Origin: Streptomonospora nanhaiensis
Lineage (GTDB): Bacteria; Actinomycetota; Actinomycetes; Streptosporangiales; Streptosporangiaceae
Length of the DNA stretch: 64,000 nt
Direction of reading: 5' to 3'
Assembly: GCF_013410565.1 (NCBI RefSeq)
Contig: NZ_JACCFO010000001.1
Span: 5,952,001 to 6,016,000 of the forward strand
The position numbers and the translations under genes were made by a program. Shown here piece after piece: positions 56,454 through 64,000 of the stretch. The notes beneath the pieces were generated by a model that had not been told where the DNA came from, did no database searches, and worked only from the letters and a program-made list of their open reading frames with translations. Within the stretch, counting starts at the first letter, position 1. The number at the start of each line of letters is the position of its first letter.

Positions 56454-58064
56454 TTACTCGGCGGCGATGCGCTCCTGGCGCTGCTCGCGCCGCTCAGCGG
56501 CCTCCGCGTCCGGCGTGCCGGCGGTCTGGGGCGCGTCCTCGCCCTCCTGCCCGCCGCGCTTGCGGCGGGAGTCCAGGAAGAACCCGGAGAGGACGGCCAG
56601 GACCAGCAGTACCGCCACGCTGGTGTAGGACACGGCGGCCTGCCCGGAGGTGAAGGCCGCGCGGGCGGCCTCCAGCACCGCCGCGCCGGTGCCGGAGGCC
56701 AGCTCCTGGGCCACCGCGGTGGCGCCGGCGATGCTGTCCACCGCCTGCGGAGCGGCCGACTCCGGCACGCCCGCCGGAAGGCTGTCGCTCATCTGCGAGC
56801 GGTAGACGGCCGAGCCGATCGCGCCGAGGGTGGCCACGCCCAGCGCCATGCCCATCTCCGAGGCTGTCTCCGACATCGAGGACGCCGAACCGCTCTTCTC
56901 CTTGGGCGCCGCCGCGATCACCAGGTCGATCACCAGCACCATCAGGGGGCCGATGCCGATGGAGATGATCATGGAGGCGGCCACCGGCAGCCAGAGGGCG
57001 GAGTCGGGGCCGGCCTGGGCGAACATGAGGAACCCGCAGGCCATCACGAGCAGCCCCAGGGCGATCGTGCGGCCGGGGCCGATGCGCTGGGCCAGCGGCG
57101 GCGACACCATCGAGCCGAGGATGTTGGCCGCCGCGAACGGCGCCATCCACAGCCCGGCGGCCAGCGCCGACAGGCCCATGGACAGCTGGAGGTACTGGGC
57201 CAGCAGCAGGATGAAGGAGCCCTGGACCAGGGTGCCCAGCAGCAGGCTGCCCAGCCCAACCGTGAAGGCGCGGTGGCGGAACAGGCCCAGCTCCATCAGC
57301 GGGTCGCGCAGCCGCCGCTGGCGCCGCACGAACAGCCAGCCGAACACCGCGGCCACGGCGATCACGACGAACGTCGAGACCTGCCAGCCCTCGCGGGCGG
57401 CGTCCTTGAAGGCGTAGACGAACGGCAGGATCGCGGCCAGCGACAGGACCACGCTGAACAGGTCCAGCCGCCCGGGGACGGGGTCGCGGTACTCGGGCAG
57501 CAGCAGCGGGGCGGTGATCAGCAGCAGCACCATCACGGGGACGGCCATGAGGAACACCGCGCCCCACCAGAACCACTCCAGCAGGACGCCGCCGGCCATG
57601 GGGCCGATGGCGCCGCCGGCGGCGAAGCAGGAGCCCCACACCGCGATGGCGAAGCCGCGCTGGCGGGCGTCGTGGAACATGTTGCTGATGAGCGACAGCG
57701 TCGAGGGCATCAGCGTGGCACCCGAGATGCCCAGCAGCGCGCGGGCGGCGATCAGGGTCTCGGGCGTGGGCGCGTAGGCGGCGGCCACCGAGGCGGCGCC
57801 GAAGGCCGTGGCCCCGATCATCAGCAGCCGGCGGCGGCCGATCCGGTCGCCCAGCGTGCCCATGGTGATCAGGAAGCCGGCGACCATGAAGCCGTAGATG
57901 TCGAGGATCCACAGCTGCTCGGTGCTGGTGGGGTCGAGGTCGGCGGCCAGGTGCGGCAGCGCCAGGTGCAGTGCGGTGAGGTCGAGCGAGAGCAGCAGGA
58001 TCGGCAGAGCCAGCACGGCCAGGCCGACCCACTCCTTCACTCCGGCCTTGGAACCGGATGACAT
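56454..58064 (-). CDS. MFS drug exporter, 14-helix DHA2 (EmrB/QacA/SmvA) type
   Basis: A 536-residue exporter. About 14 helices and the DHA2 motifs are seen: LDLTALHLALPHLAADL near the start, GTLGDRIGRRRLLMIG (loop 2-3) and a motif C around ISGATLMPSTLSLISNMF. It most resembles SmvA/QacA proton-coupled exporters of cationic or antibiotic compounds. AAGGAAGG precedes the ATG. The gene is divergent from a large BTAD-type regulator, which may control it. A hydrophilic acidic tail of 40 residues closes the protein. Confidence 0.92.
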   Translation of the reverse strand: MSSGSKAGVKEWVGLAVLALPILLLSLDLTALHLALPHLAADLDPTSTEQLWILDIYGFMVAGFLITMGTLGDRIGRRRLLMIGATAFGAASVAAAYAPTPETLIAARALLGISGATLMPSTLSLISNMFHDARQRGFAIAVWGSCFAAGGAIGPMAGGVLLEWFWWGAVFLMAVPVMVLLLITAPLLLPEYRDPVPGRLDLFSVVLSLAAILPFVYAFKDAAREGWQVSTFVVIAVAAVFGWLFVRRQRRLRDPLMELGLFRHRAFTVGLGSLLLGTLVQGSFILLLAQYLQLSMGLSALAAGLWMAPFAAANILGSMVSPPLAQRIGPGRTIALGLLVMACGFLMFAQAGPDSALWLPVAASMIISIGIGPLMVLVIDLVIAAAPKEKSGSASSMSETASEMGMALGVATLGAIGSAVYRSQMSDSLPAGVPESAAPQAVDSIAGATAVAQELASGTGAAVLEAARAAFTSGQAAVSYTSVAVLLVLAVLSGFFLDSRRKRGGQEGEDAPQTAGTPDAEAAERREQRQERIAAE

Positions 58065-58172
58065 GGTCCTTCCTTCCCCTCGCGGGCGCGGATCGCGCCG
58101 TCTGGCCACCAGGGTGGCCAGCGGGGGTTCCGGAGAGGTTGCGGTCCCCGGGCGCCGGACCGGAACCTGTAC

Positions 58173-58184: not shown

Positions 58185-61100
58185 ATGCGGTTCGGCGTTC
58201 TCGGGCCTGTGCAGGTGTGGAGCGCCGACGGGCGGCTGGTTCCGGTGCCCGAGGCCAAGGTGCGCGCCATCCTGGCCGCCCTGCTCATGCGCAACGGCAC
58301 CCCCGCCACCACCGGCGCCCTCATCGAGGAGGTCTGGGAGACCGACCGCCCGGCCGCGCCCGAACGGGTGCTGCGCTCCAAGATCTCCCGGCTGCGCGGC
58401 GTGCTCGACTCCGCCGAACCCGGCGGGCGCGACCGCCTCGTGCACCGCCCCGGCGGCTACGCCCTGCGCTTCTCCGACGACGAGCTGGACGCCCTGCGGT
58501 TCCGGGCGCTGGTGGAGCACGCCCGCGCCAGCGCCGACCCCGACGTCCGCGCCGCCGCGCTGGAGGAGGCGCTGGACCTGTGGCGGGGCCCCGCGCTGGC
58601 CGACGCCGCCGACACCACCGCGCTGCGCCCCTGGGCCGAGCACCTGGAGGAGGACCGGCTCACCGCGATCGAGGAGCGCGCCGACGCCCGCACCGGGCAG
58701 GGCCGCCACCCGCTTCTCGCCGACGAGTTGGGCGCGCTGGCCGAGGCCCACCCGCTGCGCGAGCGCATCCGCGCCGCCCACATGCGCGCCCTCTACCGGG
58801 CCGGGCGCCAGACCGAGGCGCTGGAGTCCTACGAGCGGCTGCGCGCCGCGCTGGCCGAGGAGCTGGGCGTGGACCCCAGCCCCGAACTCGCCGAGCTGCA
58901 CGGCGCGATCCTGCGCCAGGACCCCGGCCTCCTGGCCGAGCCCGCCAAGCCCGCGGCCCCGGCCCGCTCCGGGCTGCCCGCGCCGCTGGACGAGTTCGTC
59001 GGGCGCGAGGCCGACCTCGCCGACCTGCGCCGGCTGCTGGCGGAGGGCCGCCGCCTGGTCACCCTCACCGGGCCCGGCGGCGTGGGCAAGACCCGGCTGG
59101 CGGTGGAGGCCGGGCGGGCCGCCGCCGCGGACTTCGACGCCACCTGGTTCGTGGAGCTGGGCCACCTGCCCGCCGAGACCGGCGACGACCCCGACCGCCT
59201 GGCCGACGCCGTCGCCTACGCCGTGGGCATCCGCGACGAGAGCGTGCCGCGCCACGCGCGCGGGCTGGCCCGGCTGGCCGGCGCGCTGTCGGGCACCCGC
59301 GGCCTGCTGGTGCTGGACAACTGCGAGCACCTGCTGGGCGCGGCGGCGCCGCTGATCCGCTCCCTGCGCGAGGCGGCGCCCGACCTGCACCTGCTGGCCA
59401 CCAGCCGGGAGCCGCTGCGGGTGCGCGGCGAGTGGGTCTACCAGGTGGCCCCCCTGCGCGCCGACGGCGACGGGTCGGCCGTGCGGCTGTTCGCCGTGCG
59501 CGCGGCCGCCTCGGCGCCGGGCTTCCGCCTCGACGCCCGCACCGAGCCGGTGGTGGCGGCCATCTGCCGGCGGCTGGACGGCCTGCCGCTGGCCCTGGAA
59601 CTGGCCGCCAACCGGGTGCGCGCCCTGGGCGTGGCCACGCTGGCCGCCGGGCTGGACGACCGGTTCGCCCTGCTGGCCTCGGGCGAGCGCGACGCGCCCG
59701 AGCGGCTGCGCACCCTGCGCGCCATGATCGACTGGAGCTGGGACCTGCTGGAGGAGGACGAGCGCGTCGCCCTGCGCCGGGTCTCGGTCTTCTCCGACGG
59801 GTTCACCCCCGAGGCCGCGGCGGCGGTGCTGGGCCGCCCGGCCACCGGGTCGCTGGCGCGGCTGGCGGAGTCCTCGCTGGCGGTGCCGATGGAGGGCGCC
59901 GACGGCGTGCGGTTCCGGCTGCTGGAGACCATCGCCGCCTACGCCGCCGAGCGGTTGGAGGAGGCCGGCGAGGCCGGCCTCGTGCGCGAGCGCCACATGC
60001 GCTTCCACGTGGAGTTCGCCGAGCGGGCCGACGTCGCGCTGCGCGGCGCCGACCAGGCGCTGACCCTGCGGCGGCTCGACGAGTCGGCCAACGACCTGCG
60101 CGCCGCCTTCGCCGAGGCGCTGCGCACCGGCGACGCCCACAGCGCGCTGCGGCTGGCGGTGGGCGGGTTCTGGTACCGCTGGCTGCGCGGCCGGCTGGGC
60201 GAGGCCCACCGCACGCTCACCTCGGCGCTGGCGCTGCCCGGCGGGCCGCCCGGCCTGCGCGCGCTGGCCGCGGCCTGGCGCACCGGCCTGGAACTGGGCG
60301 ACCGCGACCTGCCCGACCCCGCCGCCCGGGCGGCCGCCGCCGTGACCGCCTTCCAGGACGCCGGCGACCGCGCCGCCCAGGCGCGCGCGTGGTGGTTCAT
60401 GGGCCCCATGCTCATGGAGGTCGGCGAGCAGGAGGCGGCCGAGTGGATGCTGGCCGCCGCCCTGGCCGACTTCCGCGAGCGCGGGGACCGCTGGGGTGTG
60501 GCGGCGGTGCTGTGCAACCGCGCCTGGCTGGCGCTGATGCGCGGCCGGGCCGACGAGGCCGGGGGCGAGGGCCGGCGCGCCCTGGCCTTGTTCGAGGAGC
60601 TGGGCGACGGCTGGGGCCGGCTGGAGGCCATGGCGGTGCTGCGCCGGCACGCCGAGGCCGTGGGCGACCACGCCGAGTCCGCCCGCATCGGCGAGGCCGG
60701 GCTGGCGCTGTCGGAGGAGCTGGGCCTGGTGACCAAGACCGGGCACTGGCTGGCGTTCCTGGGCCGCTCGGCGATGCTGGCCGGCGACCTGGAGCGGGCC
60801 GCCGGGCTGCTGGAGCGCGCCCACCGCCTTTCCGTGCGCCACGGCGACATCTTCGGCCGCCGGTTCGCCGGGCTGCACCTGGGCGCGCTGGCCCGGCGCC
60901 AGGGCCGCTCGGCCGAGGCCGAGACCCTGCTGGAGGCGTGGCTGGGCGAGCGCGGCGGCGAGCAGCCCACCGAGGAGCGGGCGATGGCGCTGACCGAACT
61001 GGGTTTCGCCGCGCTGGCGCGGGGCGACGCCGCGGCGGCGCTGACCCGCCACCGGCGCGCGCTGGCCACGGCGCGGTCCACGGCCTCGGGCCAGGCGGTG

Positions 61101-61373
61101 GCGGCGGCGTGCGCGGGGCTGGCCGCCACGGCCGCGGCCCTCGGGCGGGGGGCCGACGCCGCGCTCCTGCTCGGCGCGGCGGCGGGCGCGCGCGGGGGCA
61201 CCCGGCCGGCCGCGGCCGAGGCCGCCGAGGCCGAGCGGATCGCCGAGGCGGTCCGGAAAATCGCCGGTGCCGACGAATTCGACGCGCAATTCGAACAAGG
61301 GCGGCGAACGGGTGTGCGCAGTGCGGAGAACATCGCCGCTTCCTGGGACAACGCCCTCACCGAAGGTGCCTAA
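58185..61373 (+). CDS. AfsR/SARP-type BTAD and NB-ARC/STAND regulator
   Basis: A 1062-residue multidomain regulator. Residues about 1-90 form a winged DNA-binding domain (OmpR/SARP type). The BTAD domain of TPR-like helices is at 95-245. A P-loop ATPase (STAND) domain starts with GPGGVGKTR near residue 300, with Walker B-like LLVLDNCEHLLG and the ARC marker GLPLALELAANRVR. The rest is TPR-like repeats (residues about 590-1030). This is the AfsR/MalT-like layout, used to switch on secondary metabolism or transport. It lies divergent from a DHA2 exporter and just before a response regulator and a YcaO gene, all plausible targets. Confidence 0.9.
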   Translation: MRFGVLGPVQVWSADGRLVPVPEAKVRAILAALLMRNGTPATTGALIEEVWETDRPAAPERVLRSKISRLRGVLDSAEPGGRDRLVHRPGGYALRFSDDELDALRFRALVEHARASADPDVRAAALEEALDLWRGPALADAADTTALRPWAEHLEEDRLTAIEERADARTGQGRHPLLADELGALAEAHPLRERIRAAHMRALYRAGRQTEALESYERLRAALAEELGVDPSPELAELHGAILRQDPGLLAEPAKPAAPARSGLPAPLDEFVGREADLADLRRLLAEGRRLVTLTGPGGVGKTRLAVEAGRAAAADFDATWFVELGHLPAETGDDPDRLADAVAYAVGIRDESVPRHARGLARLAGALSGTRGLLVLDNCEHLLGAAAPLIRSLREAAPDLHLLATSREPLRVRGEWVYQVAPLRADGDGSAVRLFAVRAAASAPGFRLDARTEPVVAAICRRLDGLPLALELAANRVRALGVATLAAGLDDRFALLASGERDAPERLRTLRAMIDWSWDLLEEDERVALRRVSVFSDGFTPEAAAAVLGRPATGSLARLAESSLAVPMEGADGVRFRLLETIAAYAAERLEEAGEAGLVRERHMRFHVEFAERADVALRGADQALTLRRLDESANDLRAAFAEALRTGDAHSALRLAVGGFWYRWLRGRLGEAHRTLTSALALPGGPPGLRALAAAWRTGLELGDRDLPDPAARAAAAVTAFQDAGDRAAQARAWWFMGPMLMEVGEQEAAEWMLAAALADFRERGDRWGVAAVLCNRAWLALMRGRADEAGGEGRRALALFEELGDGWGRLEAMAVLRRHAEAVGDHAESARIGEAGLALSEELGLVTKTGHWLAFLGRSAMLAGDLERAAGLLERAHRLSVRHGDIFGRRFAGLHLGALARRQGRSAEAETLLEAWLGERGGEQPTEERAMALTELGFAALARGDAAAALTRHRRALATARSTASGQAVAAACAGLAATAAALGRGADAALLLGAAAGARGGTRPAAAEAAEAERIAEAVRKIAGADEFDAQFEQGRRTGVRSAENIAASWDNALTEGA

Positions 61374-61676: not shown

Positions 61677-62282
61677 ATGATCAGCGTGGTCTTGGCAGAG
61701 GACATGCACATGGTGCGCGGGGCACTGGTATCGCTGCTCCGGCTGGAATCCGATATCAACGTTGTGGCGGAAATCGTCTCCGGCGACGATATCCTTCCGG
61801 CGGTGCTCAAACACCGGCCCGACGTCGCCATTCTCGACATTGATCTTCCCGGAAAGGACGGGTTGTCCGCGGCGGCCGACATCCACGAGCAGGCGCCCGA
61901 GACCCGCACACTCATTCTCACCAGCATCGGCAAGCCCGGCGCGCTGCGCCGCGCGCTTTCGGCGAAGGTCGACGGATTCCTGCTCAAGGACGCACCGCCG
62001 CACGAACTCGCCGAGGCGGTGCGGCGGGTGCATTCGGGCCGGCGCGTCATCGACGGCGAACTCGCCCTCGCCGCGTTCGAGACCGACGAATGCCCGCTGA
62101 CCGCGCGCGAACTCGACGTGCTGCGCCGCGCCGCCGACGGCAGCGACGTCCCCGAGATCGCCGCGCAGCTCTACCTGACCGCCGGGACCGTGCGCAACTA
62201 CCTCGCCTCGGTCACCACCAAGCTCAACGCCCGAAACCGGGTCGACGCGGTGCGCATCGCCCGCGAGGCCGGCTGGGTCTGA
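61677..62282 (+). CDS. NarL/LuxR-type response regulator
   Basis: A 201-residue response regulator. The receiver has acidic residues in LAEDMHMVRGALVSLL, phospho-acceptor Asp54 in AILDIDLPGKDG and a switch Lys in FLLKDAPP. The LuxR-type helix-turn-helix covers about 135-195 (LTARELDVLRRAADGSDVPEIAAQLYLTAGTVRNYLASVTTKLNARNRVDAVRIA). The ribosome site is weak. Codons are less GC-biased than in the genes around, hinting at a different origin. No kinase is adjacent. It is convergent with the YcaO gene and may regulate that cluster. Confidence 0.9.
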   Translation: MISVVLAEDMHMVRGALVSLLRLESDINVVAEIVSGDDILPAVLKHRPDVAILDIDLPGKDGLSAAADIHEQAPETRTLILTSIGKPGALRRALSAKVDGFLLKDAPPHELAEAVRRVHSGRRVIDGELALAAFETDECPLTARELDVLRRAADGSDVPEIAAQLYLTAGTVRNYLASVTTKLNARNRVDAVRIAREAGWV

Positions 62283-62317
62283 CCGGCCGGCCCATGAAGG
62301 GCTCCCGGCTTCCGACC

Positions 62318-64000
62318 TCACAGGAACAGCGGCACGGGGTTGAGGTCGGCGTAGGCGACGGGAGCGGCGCGCCGCCCCAGCCGCACGGGCACGTCGAACA
62401 GCCGGCCCGGTGCGAACCGCGCCCAGAACGGCCGCAGCCCCGGCACCACCGTGCGCACCACGGGCAGGCCGACGTCGGGGCGGGTCTGGTCCAGCACCAG
62501 CATCTCCAGCCCGCGCGCGGCGAACGCGTCGCGCAGCCACAGCACGTCGTCGCGCAGGTCGGCGCGCGCGGCGCGGGGGTAGTCGCCCGGGCCCAGCGCC
62601 GGGCGCCCCGGATCCGGCAGCAGGTGCGGCGCGCCCGCCGTGCCCGGGCCCTTCCACCAGCGCTCGGCGTCGGGGTCGCCCCAGTCGGCCACGCCGTCCG
62701 GCACGGCCGCGACGAGCTGGTTCATCTCGGCCACCGCCCGGCGCAGCGCCACCGCCGGGTCGAAGTGGCAGCCGAACCCGAACATCACCCGCTCGGGGCC
62801 CTCCGCGCACCGCGTCACCGCAGCCATGGCCGGCACCCCCAGGTCGGAGGTCACGTCCAGCACCCAGAACACCCGGCCCAGCCGCGCGTACTCCCCGGCC
62901 ACGCGCTCCACCCAGGGGTCGGCGAAGGCGCCCGGGTCCACCGCCGGGTGCACCGTGCGGTTGTACCACCACAGCGCCACCGCGTCGCGCTCCACCAGCT
63001 CCAGGGCGCCCTGCACCACCGCGTCGGCCACGCTGGAGCCCGCGGCGCAGCCGTTGGAGTCGGCGCGGAAGGGCCGCCACCCCGGCTCACCGGGCGCGCC
63101 GAAGTACAGCAGGGCCGTGGGCAGCAGCCGGTGCTCCTCGCGGGTGAGCGACCACACCGGCGTCCAGTCCAGCTCGGCGGTGTCGTCGAAGGGGTCGCAC
63201 ACGAACTGGAAGGCGCCGTGCTCGGCGTTCCACCGCTCCCGGTCGGCGTACTGGCGCGCGTCCACCAGCGTGCAGGTGTCGGGGTGCACGGCCGCCCCGC
63301 CCAGGTCGGCGTAGCGGGCCCGCACCCGCTCCTCGTCGCCCTGGAAGGCGCCGCTGTACCGCTCGACCGCCTCGCACAGCGCGCTGACGCGGGCGTCGAG
63401 GTCGGTGACCCCCTTGCCGCCGTTCTCGGCGCGCAGCGCCGCGCGCACCCCCGCCAGCCCGGTGCCGGGCGCCGCCGCGTTGGGGCCGGAGCGGTAGGCG
63501 TGGAACCCGGGGGGCGCCCCGCGCACCGGGCGCAGCGCCTTGGCGATTCCGGTGACCGGGCCGACCAGGTGGCCGAACTCCTCCAGCACCCGGTGGGGCT
63601 CGCGCGCCCGGTGGCCGGTGCCCCCGGCGGCGGCCTTGGGCGCGGACCCCACGCGCACCGGCCGCCGCGTGCGCGCGGCCACCAGGCCGGGGTCGCCGCA
63701 GACCGGGCACTGCGGGCGGGCGCGTACCGGGTGCGCGCGGCCCTCCAGCGCGGCGCCGTCCAGCGTCCACACGTACTCGCCCGCGCCCCCGGCGCCGCGC
63801 AGCCCCGCGGCCCACCGCAGGACCTCCACCGCCACCAGGTGCGCCGCTGCCGCCTCCAGCGCGGGCAGGCCGGCGGGCGGCGCCGCCGGAGGGCGGGCGC
63901 CCGCCGCCCGCAGCGCCGCCAGTTCGGCCTGGCGGTGCGGCCGCAGCCGGTGGGCCAGGCAGTGCCAGCAGCCCGAGTCCGTCCCGGGCGTGAACACCGG
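62318..64000 (-). CDS. YcaO-domain TOMM cyclodehydratase, C-terminal part (cut by window edge)
   Basis: The reading frame is open to the right edge, so about 560 codons are only the C-terminal portion. The first visible residues contain CWHC and later CPVC, the two Cys pairs of the zinc site found in the fused E1-like part of azoline-forming cyclodehydratases. The YcaO domain follows: CEAVERYSGAFQGDEE, then GAFQFVCDPFDDTAEL, GCAAGSSVADAVVQGALELVERDAVALWWYNR and the Pro-containing ending LNPVPLFL. YcaO enzymes use ATP to cyclise Cys, Ser or Thr of a precursor peptide to azolines. The precursor and partner genes must lie beyond the window. Confidence 0.88.
   Translation of the reverse strand, partial: PVFTPGTDSGCWHCLAHRLRPHRQAELAALRAAGARPPAAPPAGLPALEAAAAHLVAVEVLRWAAGLRGAGGAGEYVWTLDGAALEGRAHPVRARPQCPVCGDPGLVAARTRRPVRVGSAPKAAAGGTGHRAREPHRVLEEFGHLVGPVTGIAKALRPVRGAPPGFHAYRSGPNAAAPGTGLAGVRAALRAENGGKGVTDLDARVSALCEAVERYSGAFQGDEERVRARYADLGGAAVHPDTCTLVDARQYADRERWNAEHGAFQFVCDPFDDTAELDWTPVWSLTREEHRLLPTALLYFGAPGEPGWRPFRADSNGCAAGSSVADAVVQGALELVERDAVALWWYNRTVHPAVDPGAFADPWVERVAGEYARLGRVFWVLDVTSDLGVPAMAAVTRCAEGPERVMFGFGCHFDPAVALRRAVAEMNQLVAAVPDGVADWGDPDAERWWKGPGTAGAPHLLPDPGRPALGPGDYPRAARADLRDDVLWLRDAFAARGLEMLVLDQTRPDVGLPVVRTVVPGLRPFWARFAPGRLFDVPVRLGRRAAPVAYADLNPVPLFL

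Follow-up and report, generated by a model that had tools for sequence, protein, structure and literature searches.

The stretch of the Streptomonospora nanhaiensis genome analysed here, referred to as the window, comprises 64,000 nucleotides (bases 5952001-6016000 of contig 1; genome 6.28 Mb, two contigs) and is cut at its right edge within the gene of a fused E1-like/YcaO cyclodehydratase. A sequence-only reading had taken this gene for the left border of an azole-containing cluster of the ribosomally synthesized and post-translationally modified peptide (RiPP) class, with the precursor and a dehydrogenase just to the right. We read the sequence 74 kb further rightward, 138 kb in total, called genes with a purpose-written codon-usage script and compared the locus with its relatives. 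The cyclodehydratase, a precursor peptide, histidine kinases (HKs) and regulators form a cassette whose linkage is conserved among relatives and which is probably a peptide-signal unit. Positions above 64000 are termed extended; position p of stretch L009 corresponds to 58000+p and position p of L010 to 78000+p.

Results

The cyclodehydratase gene lies on the minus strand at 62318..64000 in the window and runs on to extended 64657 (L009:4318-6657). Translated from the GTG at extended 64657 it encodes about 779 aa, from an upstream TTG 831 aa. The YcaO domain matches Pfam PF02624 with E=7.6e-99; among the NCBIfam models, the SagD-family component TIGR03604 scores 246.8 bits (cut-off 219.25) and the leader-binding C-domain TIGR03882 129 bits (cut-off 36.9). 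Four zinc-type cysteines (CWHC, CPVC) are invariant across 13 aligned cyclodehydratases, and the nearest solved relatives by profile match are LynD (E=1e-236), TruD (8e-235) and MusD (2e-226). Judged by these matches, the enzyme is a LynD/TruD relative of the azol(in)e-forming RiPP type, which confirms the fused protein with four zinc cysteines and a YcaO domain seen at the right edge by the sequence-only reading. Together with the precursor described below, the genome thus holds what marks the azol(in)e RiPPs (linear azol(in)e-containing peptides, LAPs, or thiazole/oxazole-modified microcins, TOMMs), namely a YcaO D protein, a C-protein/E1-like partner with zinc cysteines and a precursor, as well as the LynD/TruD-type fused heterocyclase that marks the cyanobactins. 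Since no SagB-type dehydrogenase above cut-off is found anywhere in the window genome, the single match (32 bits) lying elsewhere in it, oxidation to azoles is doubtful here, and any rings in the peptide may remain azolines.

Next to the enzyme lies a gene for a NarL-type response regulator (RR; 61677..62282, plus strand; Response_reg E=1.7e-19, GerE E=1.1e-15), followed leftward by an activator of the AfsR type (SARP-NOD, where SARP denotes the Streptomyces antibiotic regulatory protein family; 58209..61373, plus strand; BTAD, Trans_reg_C and AAA domains) and an MFS exporter (56454..58040, minus strand; MFS_1), the latter a neighbour in several close relatives, too. All three had been named from the letters of the window, and rightly so: the NarL-type gene indeed has less GC-biased codons (third-position GC 0.81 versus 0.98 for the AfsR-type and 0.97 for the YcaO gene), the adjoining large regulator is AfsR-like, and the exporter is an MFS protein, for which "DHA2" is that reading's name only. 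In a family sample of 250 genomes, in which the window genome is G000, RR orthologues of at least 71% identity occur in 10 other genomes. As a marker specific to the cassette the RR was rejected; all 250 genomes contain NarL-type matches at E<=1e-20, so that only close orthologues and position count.

To place the cassette among its relatives, we assembled a set of loci. YcaO relatives at E<=1e-40 occur in 50 of the 250 family genomes, from which 15 loci were used; a species-genome collection contributed 80 more, the best among at least 545 related stretches, and with the own genome the set comes to 96. L091, whose YcaO falls outside the family in the gene calls, was dropped, leaving 95 loci, among which L069, L102 and L127 duplicate genomes already included. 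The identities of the cassette families were checked on single members only.

The precursor gene is an open reading frame (ORF) of 48 aa, MSTQETALRPGPVSVEPNDLVIEEFDNWTTAEDAVVTPTSICTRPAAS, at extended 94731-94877 (L010:16731-16877, plus strand), preceded by AGGAG. It lies about 30 kb from the cyclodehydratase and is flanked by two divergent HK genes of the HisKA_3 type (extended 92987-94177, minus strand, and extended 95147-96508, plus strand). The leader ends in DLVIEEFDNW; the core that follows, around VTPTSICTRPAAS, is short and contains one Cys, the exact border being a presumptive one drawn from the sequence. A copy in G080, a genome of the same genus whose enzyme is 91% identical to that of the window, shows 79% identity (E=6.4e-20 in the 250-genome search) and is likewise flanked by two kinases, the G080 precursor and YcaO being on different contigs. 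At the DNA level the second, core-encoding half is identical in the two species, while the leader half contains many substitutions. A further homologue lies directly upstream of the YcaO gene of G076 (E=1.1e-5). This peptide search gave matches at E<=1 in 122 of the 250 genomes and at E<0.01 only in G000, G080 and G076; the remaining ones were treated as chance, though some (among them those of G147, G143 and G008) adjoin YcaO.

A hidden Markov model (HMM) was trained on 23 precursors that neighbour YcaO relatives, with G000 and G080 left out; it retrieves the peptide of the window genome at E=6.2e-9 (15,773 ORFs, 95 loci). Within the 138 kb it is the sole ORF below E=1 (second-best match E=3.1), and a precursor directly right of the enzyme was thus rejected. 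Across the loci the model matches 66 at E<1 and 43 at E<0.01, and the peptides share a leader terminus resembling ELVIDEFDxW, after which comes a short core, PT[ST]I[CT]W-like in several. Against NCBIfam, the peptide of the window genome has no match at E<=0.1. From the leader pattern and the HMM match, the 48-aa ORF is identified as the precursor matching the cyclodehydratase. The expected azole RiPP precursor hence exists, yet between two kinases and 30 kb away from the place proposed for it.

In the relatives, the companions of the enzyme are chiefly regulatory. Within four genes of YcaO the HK family is present in 78 of the 95 loci, the RR in 60, the SARP in 54, a SagB-type dehydrogenase in 48 and the blast cluster of the exporter, in the loci as a whole, in 12. 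Positions are conserved as well: the HK is found at +1 in 19, at +2 in 50 and at +3 in 7 loci, each upstream position accounting for 0 to 3; the SARP is at -2 in 44/94 loci and the SagB-type dehydrogenase directly 3' of YcaO in 48/95. An ORF of at most 125 aa immediately precedes YcaO on the same strand in 70/95 loci, in 48 of these 70 within 30 nt and often with an overlap of 4 nt. At least one of the HK and RR families is present in 86/95 loci and both in 68, so that HK and RR are conserved together with precursor and modifying enzyme, as in a peptide autoinducer/two-component system. With a two-component system and a SARP as its most frequent companions, the enzyme would seem to belong to a signalling module that is attached to a different cluster. 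As to oxidation, a SagB/ThcOx-like gene adjoins YcaO in G076, G008 and G124, the G076 copy scoring below the TIGR03605 cut-off (69 versus 78.4 bits).

The genes beyond the cassette vary. On a YcaO tree of 92 rows (the three duplicates dropped), loci were labelled by their neighbours in stretches of about 20 kb each, the sugar labels of L057 and L058 being set by hand: ketosynthase (KS) or acyl carrier protein (ACP) 30, no class 30, acyl-ligase only 11, DUF1702/ASPIC 9, deoxysugar 7 and KS plus sugar 5. The neighbour label requires 30 changes on this tree and HK/RR presence 2, whereby HK/RR is absent in 8 rows only and this rarity itself limits the number of changes. Five loci were set positive for HK/RR by hand, four of which have an RR anyway; in the fifth, L062, a contig-end ORF had been taken by eye for a kinase start, which gave no Pfam match. 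Nine Amycolatopsis loci carry a second precursor-like ORF 4.6-5.0 kb past YcaO, accompanied by another HK and in most cases an RR. Inspected by eye, their upstream genes are metal-homeostasis/housekeeping-like in eight of the nine; the ninth (L079) begins at YcaO.

We then compared the divergence of precursors with that of the HK sensor regions in 55 loci. Each of these has an adjoining precursor, an HK no more than five genes away, an H-box and over 100 aa of sensor region; the final filters reduced them from 57, and the locus of the window itself did not qualify. The sensor regions have a median length of 162 aa and, by a crude count, 2 to 5 hydrophobic segments in 52/55. The precursor distances show simple correlations of 0.82 with YcaO, 0.72 with the sensor region and 0.50 with the kinase region. 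With YcaO and kinase distances partialled out, the sensor retains a partial Mantel correlation of r=0.21 (p=0.0005, 2000 permutations), an effect that is small in a test that is liberal for related sequences; given YcaO and sensor, the kinase region yields r=-0.12. After pruning of close relatives the sensor effect is r=0.177 (p=0.001, 43 loci). No residual correlation with the precursor is seen for the dehydrogenase (22 loci), the SARP (30) or the RR (34), and in these subsets the sensor region keeps r=0.14-0.22.

A candidate operator occurs in two copies. One copy, GGGGGTTCCG-N9-CGGTCCCC, lies in the divergent promoter region of exporter and AfsR-type gene (58122..58149) and the other, an inverted repeat, in the kinase/precursor promoter region (extended 94496-94524). 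The copies, 36 kb apart, share CGGGGGTTCCG-N-AGA-N-GTTGCGG and 24/28 bases, a match reached with 28-base words in 3/60 dinucleotide shuffles; with 24-base words 21/60 shuffles reach the operator score, and 20-base words do not exceed the shuffles. Genome-wide, the pattern with up to 2 mismatches occurs in those two places only, both exact, and its reversed control four times, which makes the count uninformative. Allowing up to 4 mismatches, it is found only in two loci of G080 and is absent from 14 other loci of relatives. The shared operator is thus suggestive and serves as a lead.

Directly to the right of the enzyme lie neither the precursor and dehydrogenase foreseen there nor housekeeping genes lacking any small ORF or modifying enzyme; this place is taken by deoxysugar, chorismate-derived aromatic-acid and acyl-ligase genes, the biosynthetic neighbours overall spanning extended 64870-79457 and 87469-92418. 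The short precursor expected on the right is met 30 kb off, and the dehydrogenase, above cut-off, nowhere in the genome. The sugar genes (extended 64870-74710) encode a Gfo/Idh reductase, a sugar C-methyltransferase, an EryCIII-like glycosyltransferase, RmlC, a methyltransferase, RmlA, RmlB and an NDP-hexose 2,3-dehydratase, with two small proteins without Pfam match between the glycosyltransferase and RmlC. A naming of genes 62 and 63 as TetR-like was dropped, as they have no Pfam match, and they are left unnamed. The aromatic-acid genes (extended 74797-79457; L009:16797 to L010:1457) encode a PhzE-like chorismate-binding/glutamine amidotransferase protein, a PhzD-like isochorismatase, a short-chain dehydrogenase/reductase (SDR) and a class-II DAHP synthase, a set that likely supplies 3-hydroxyanthranilate. 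They are followed by a transposase, regulators and an erythromycin-esterase-like protein and, at extended 87469-92418, by a dehydrogenase/START fusion, an AMP-dependent ligase and a lyase. Polyketide synthase (PKS) or non-ribosomal peptide synthetase (NRPS) genes were absent among the cluster genes scanned, of which the SDR was covered over 87 aa only. Subtilisin-type proteases like PatA/PatG were likewise absent among the cluster genes scanned with Pfam, the relatives' and more distant genes being partly scanned.

Reading the AMP ligase as a diazotase proved weak (92 bits, cut-off 975). The lyase (extended 90874-92418; L010:12874-14418) resembles nitrosuccinate lyase with 327 bits (cut-off 650); a relative in G159 (L156:8342-9781) reaches 704 bits and is preceded by an AMP ligase and an FAD-NAD(P)-binding protein, the latter without counterpart among the called cluster genes of the window genome. 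This similarity suggests a nitrite/diazotisation pathway of the aspartate-nitrosuccinate (ANS) type in the cluster family. The aromatic-acid genes adjoin a sugar set of the dideoxy, C-methylated type, and the cluster product is possibly a glycosylated, perhaps diazo-bearing aromatic.

Discussion

Of the proposed left border of an azole RiPP cluster, the enzyme type and the existence of a precursor stand, whereas its place and the dehydrogenase do not, and the nature of the cluster is probably another. We propose, with a probability of roughly 55%, that a peptide-signal cassette borders and probably controls a glycosylated aromatic natural-product cluster here, and not an antibiotic RiPP cluster. 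From the sequence we infer a course of ring formation, export, sensing and regulation in which the 48-aa precursor would be made with its leader and short core, the N-terminal leader-binding part of the cyclodehydratase would hold the leader, and the YcaO part would turn core Cys, Thr and Ser into azolines. The trimmed peptide would then exit the cell. The membrane HKs encoded beside the precursor would sense it and phosphorylate the NarL-type regulator, which along with the AfsR-type activator would activate both the cassette and the deoxysugar/aromatic-acid cluster next to it.

A number of observations weigh against this proposal. The strongest correlate of the precursor is YcaO itself, ahead of the sensor, whose own effect is modest, and shuffled sequence at times equals the operator match. 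Neither HK nor RR lies in the stretch read in 9/95 loci, and 29/95, among them loci with a nitrile-hydratase-like leader, have no precursor match at E<1. Five loci without HK and RR form a clade (L092, L099, L106, L108, L135), in which at least L092 and L099 have long or repeated core-like precursors; some of its members may make a product and not a signal. Within four genes of YcaO no exporter/protease cluster is common in the 95 loci, although a signal acting outside must be able to leave the cell. G006, G072 and G063, genomes without YcaO (E<=1e-40), also hold RR orthologues (71-74% identity), which in the first two adjoin a HisKA_3 kinase. Finally, the neighbour labels are clustered on the tree (30 changes versus a shuffled mean of 50.8), and 7/8 genomes in the window's YcaO clade carry deoxysugar or PhzE/PhzD-type genes with the cassette.

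The last two observations, along with the lack of PKS/NRPS genes in the scanned cluster, would suit a hybrid product, in which the azol(in)e peptide is a building block, for instance one to which the EryCIII-like glycosyltransferase adds a sugar or which bears a 3-hydroxyanthranilate-type acyl unit, and the two-component system merely regulates. We consider this unlikely, though worth keeping in sight, given that the same cassette stands elsewhere beside KS/ACP, DUF1702/ASPIC or acyl-ligase genes and, in Amycolatopsis, beside metal-homeostasis/housekeeping-like ones, and that G076, of the same clade, is without sugar genes in the 30 kb read. The lack of a common exporter/protease cluster also tells against an ordinary linear azol(in)e antibiotic cluster that brings its own two-component regulators and immunity and neighbours the other cluster by chance. 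Such a cluster would account for the LAP/cyanobactin type of enzyme and precursor, and lantibiotics are known to combine antibiotic and signal roles; with no dehydrogenase above cut-off in the genome, a very short core with one Cys and a SARP at -2 that chance adjacency leaves unexplained, we regard it as rather improbable. It is very improbable that the cassette is decayed here, the insertion of the sugar cluster having parted precursor from enzyme so that the system no longer works. The 30 kb separation and the missing SagB/ThcOx-like gene, unlike in G076, G008 and G124, would fit, but the cassette genes are open frames, core residues and core DNA are identical in two species with diverged leaders, and in G080 the precursor also sits between two kinases on a contig apart from YcaO.

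A broader version of the signal proposal, which we hold tentatively and rate just short of even odds, is that precursor, azoline-forming YcaO, HK, RR and SARP make up a widespread mobile peptide-hormone module of Actinobacteria. It would switch on unrelated antibiotic clusters, its strain-specific cores being read by matching sensors, as a ribosomal counterpart of the gamma-butyrolactone systems. Many actinomycete antibiotic clusters are silent in the laboratory. If true, short azoline peptides would be a new class of bacterial signal and predictable, synthesizable keys to the specific silent clusters they adjoin, and some of what genome miners call a LAP or azole RiPP beside another cluster may be a regulator and not a product.

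The autoinduction of nisin-type RiPPs runs through a cognate two-component system. There, too, precursor, modifying enzyme, HK and RR stand in one unit and the peptide is assumed to be the ligand; in the cassette, by contrast, the chemistry is of the azol(in)e and not the lanthionine kind, and the proposed output is a different, neighbouring cluster. LynD, TruD and MusD share with the window enzyme the joining of leader-binding and YcaO parts in one chain. Compared to the cyanobactin heterocyclases, the relatives of the cassette (among the best 80 of at least 545 stretches) are nearly all from Actinobacteria and have a two-component system and a SARP as linked partners, and most precursors are short and non-repeated, with no PatA/PatG-type proteases among the genes scanned. 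The classes of a 2015 TOMM survey (PMC4603692) likewise include YcaO/C-protein fusions, leader/core precursors and an optional SagB dehydrogenase; none of the class names in its section list refers to a two-component or SARP link, and its main text is free of words starting with kinase, two-component, signal, quorum or polyketide. The nearest functional precedent found is goadsporin, an actinobacterial azole RiPP made with a fused cyclodehydratase; according to PMC5303826 and PMC4603692 it triggers secondary metabolism and morphogenesis. Goadsporin itself bears six azoles, two dehydroalanines and an acetyl cap, and the terms "histidine kinase" and "regulator" are absent from the main text of PMC5303826. 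AfsR/SARP activators (see PMC10936776) likewise place a BTAD-type activator beside a biosynthetic cluster, whereas in the cassette the SARP is a frequent partner of the azole-peptide/two-component unit. The accramycin cluster was dismissed as a precedent; the portion of PMC6767120 concerned mentions genes for kinases and regulators and lacks the cassette's terms. PMC8988807 was discarded as well, since "Tomm" is an author's name there. Among the matches listed from the open-access PMC literature, subscription papers and preprints being outside the search, none describes a YcaO/two-component/SARP unit.

Further observations on the relatives

A shorter dehydrogenase-like protein, perhaps the N-terminal half only, is encoded at or near the SagB-type position within four genes of YcaO in 16/95 loci (L061, L065, L100, L101, L118, L119, L121-L125, L129, L130, L140, L141, L147); the sole member tested, from L061 (222 aa), gave no Pfam or NCBIfam match. 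The Amycolatopsis loci L092 and L099, which have no HK or RR, contain upstream ORFs in which AEPVxxC-like segments recur and which may be multi-core precursors. A nitrile-hydratase-like leader marks the precursors of one blast cluster of 18 loci including L067, L083 and L131, and the sole one tested, that of L067, scores 49.8 bits against TIGR04351 (cut-off 65). Two leader types thus appear to share one cassette with the same enzyme and kinase. The cassette is also present in L109 (contig k141_3460212), a record titled Candidatus Melainabacteria, which would be either a mis-binned actinobacterial contig or a case of transfer.

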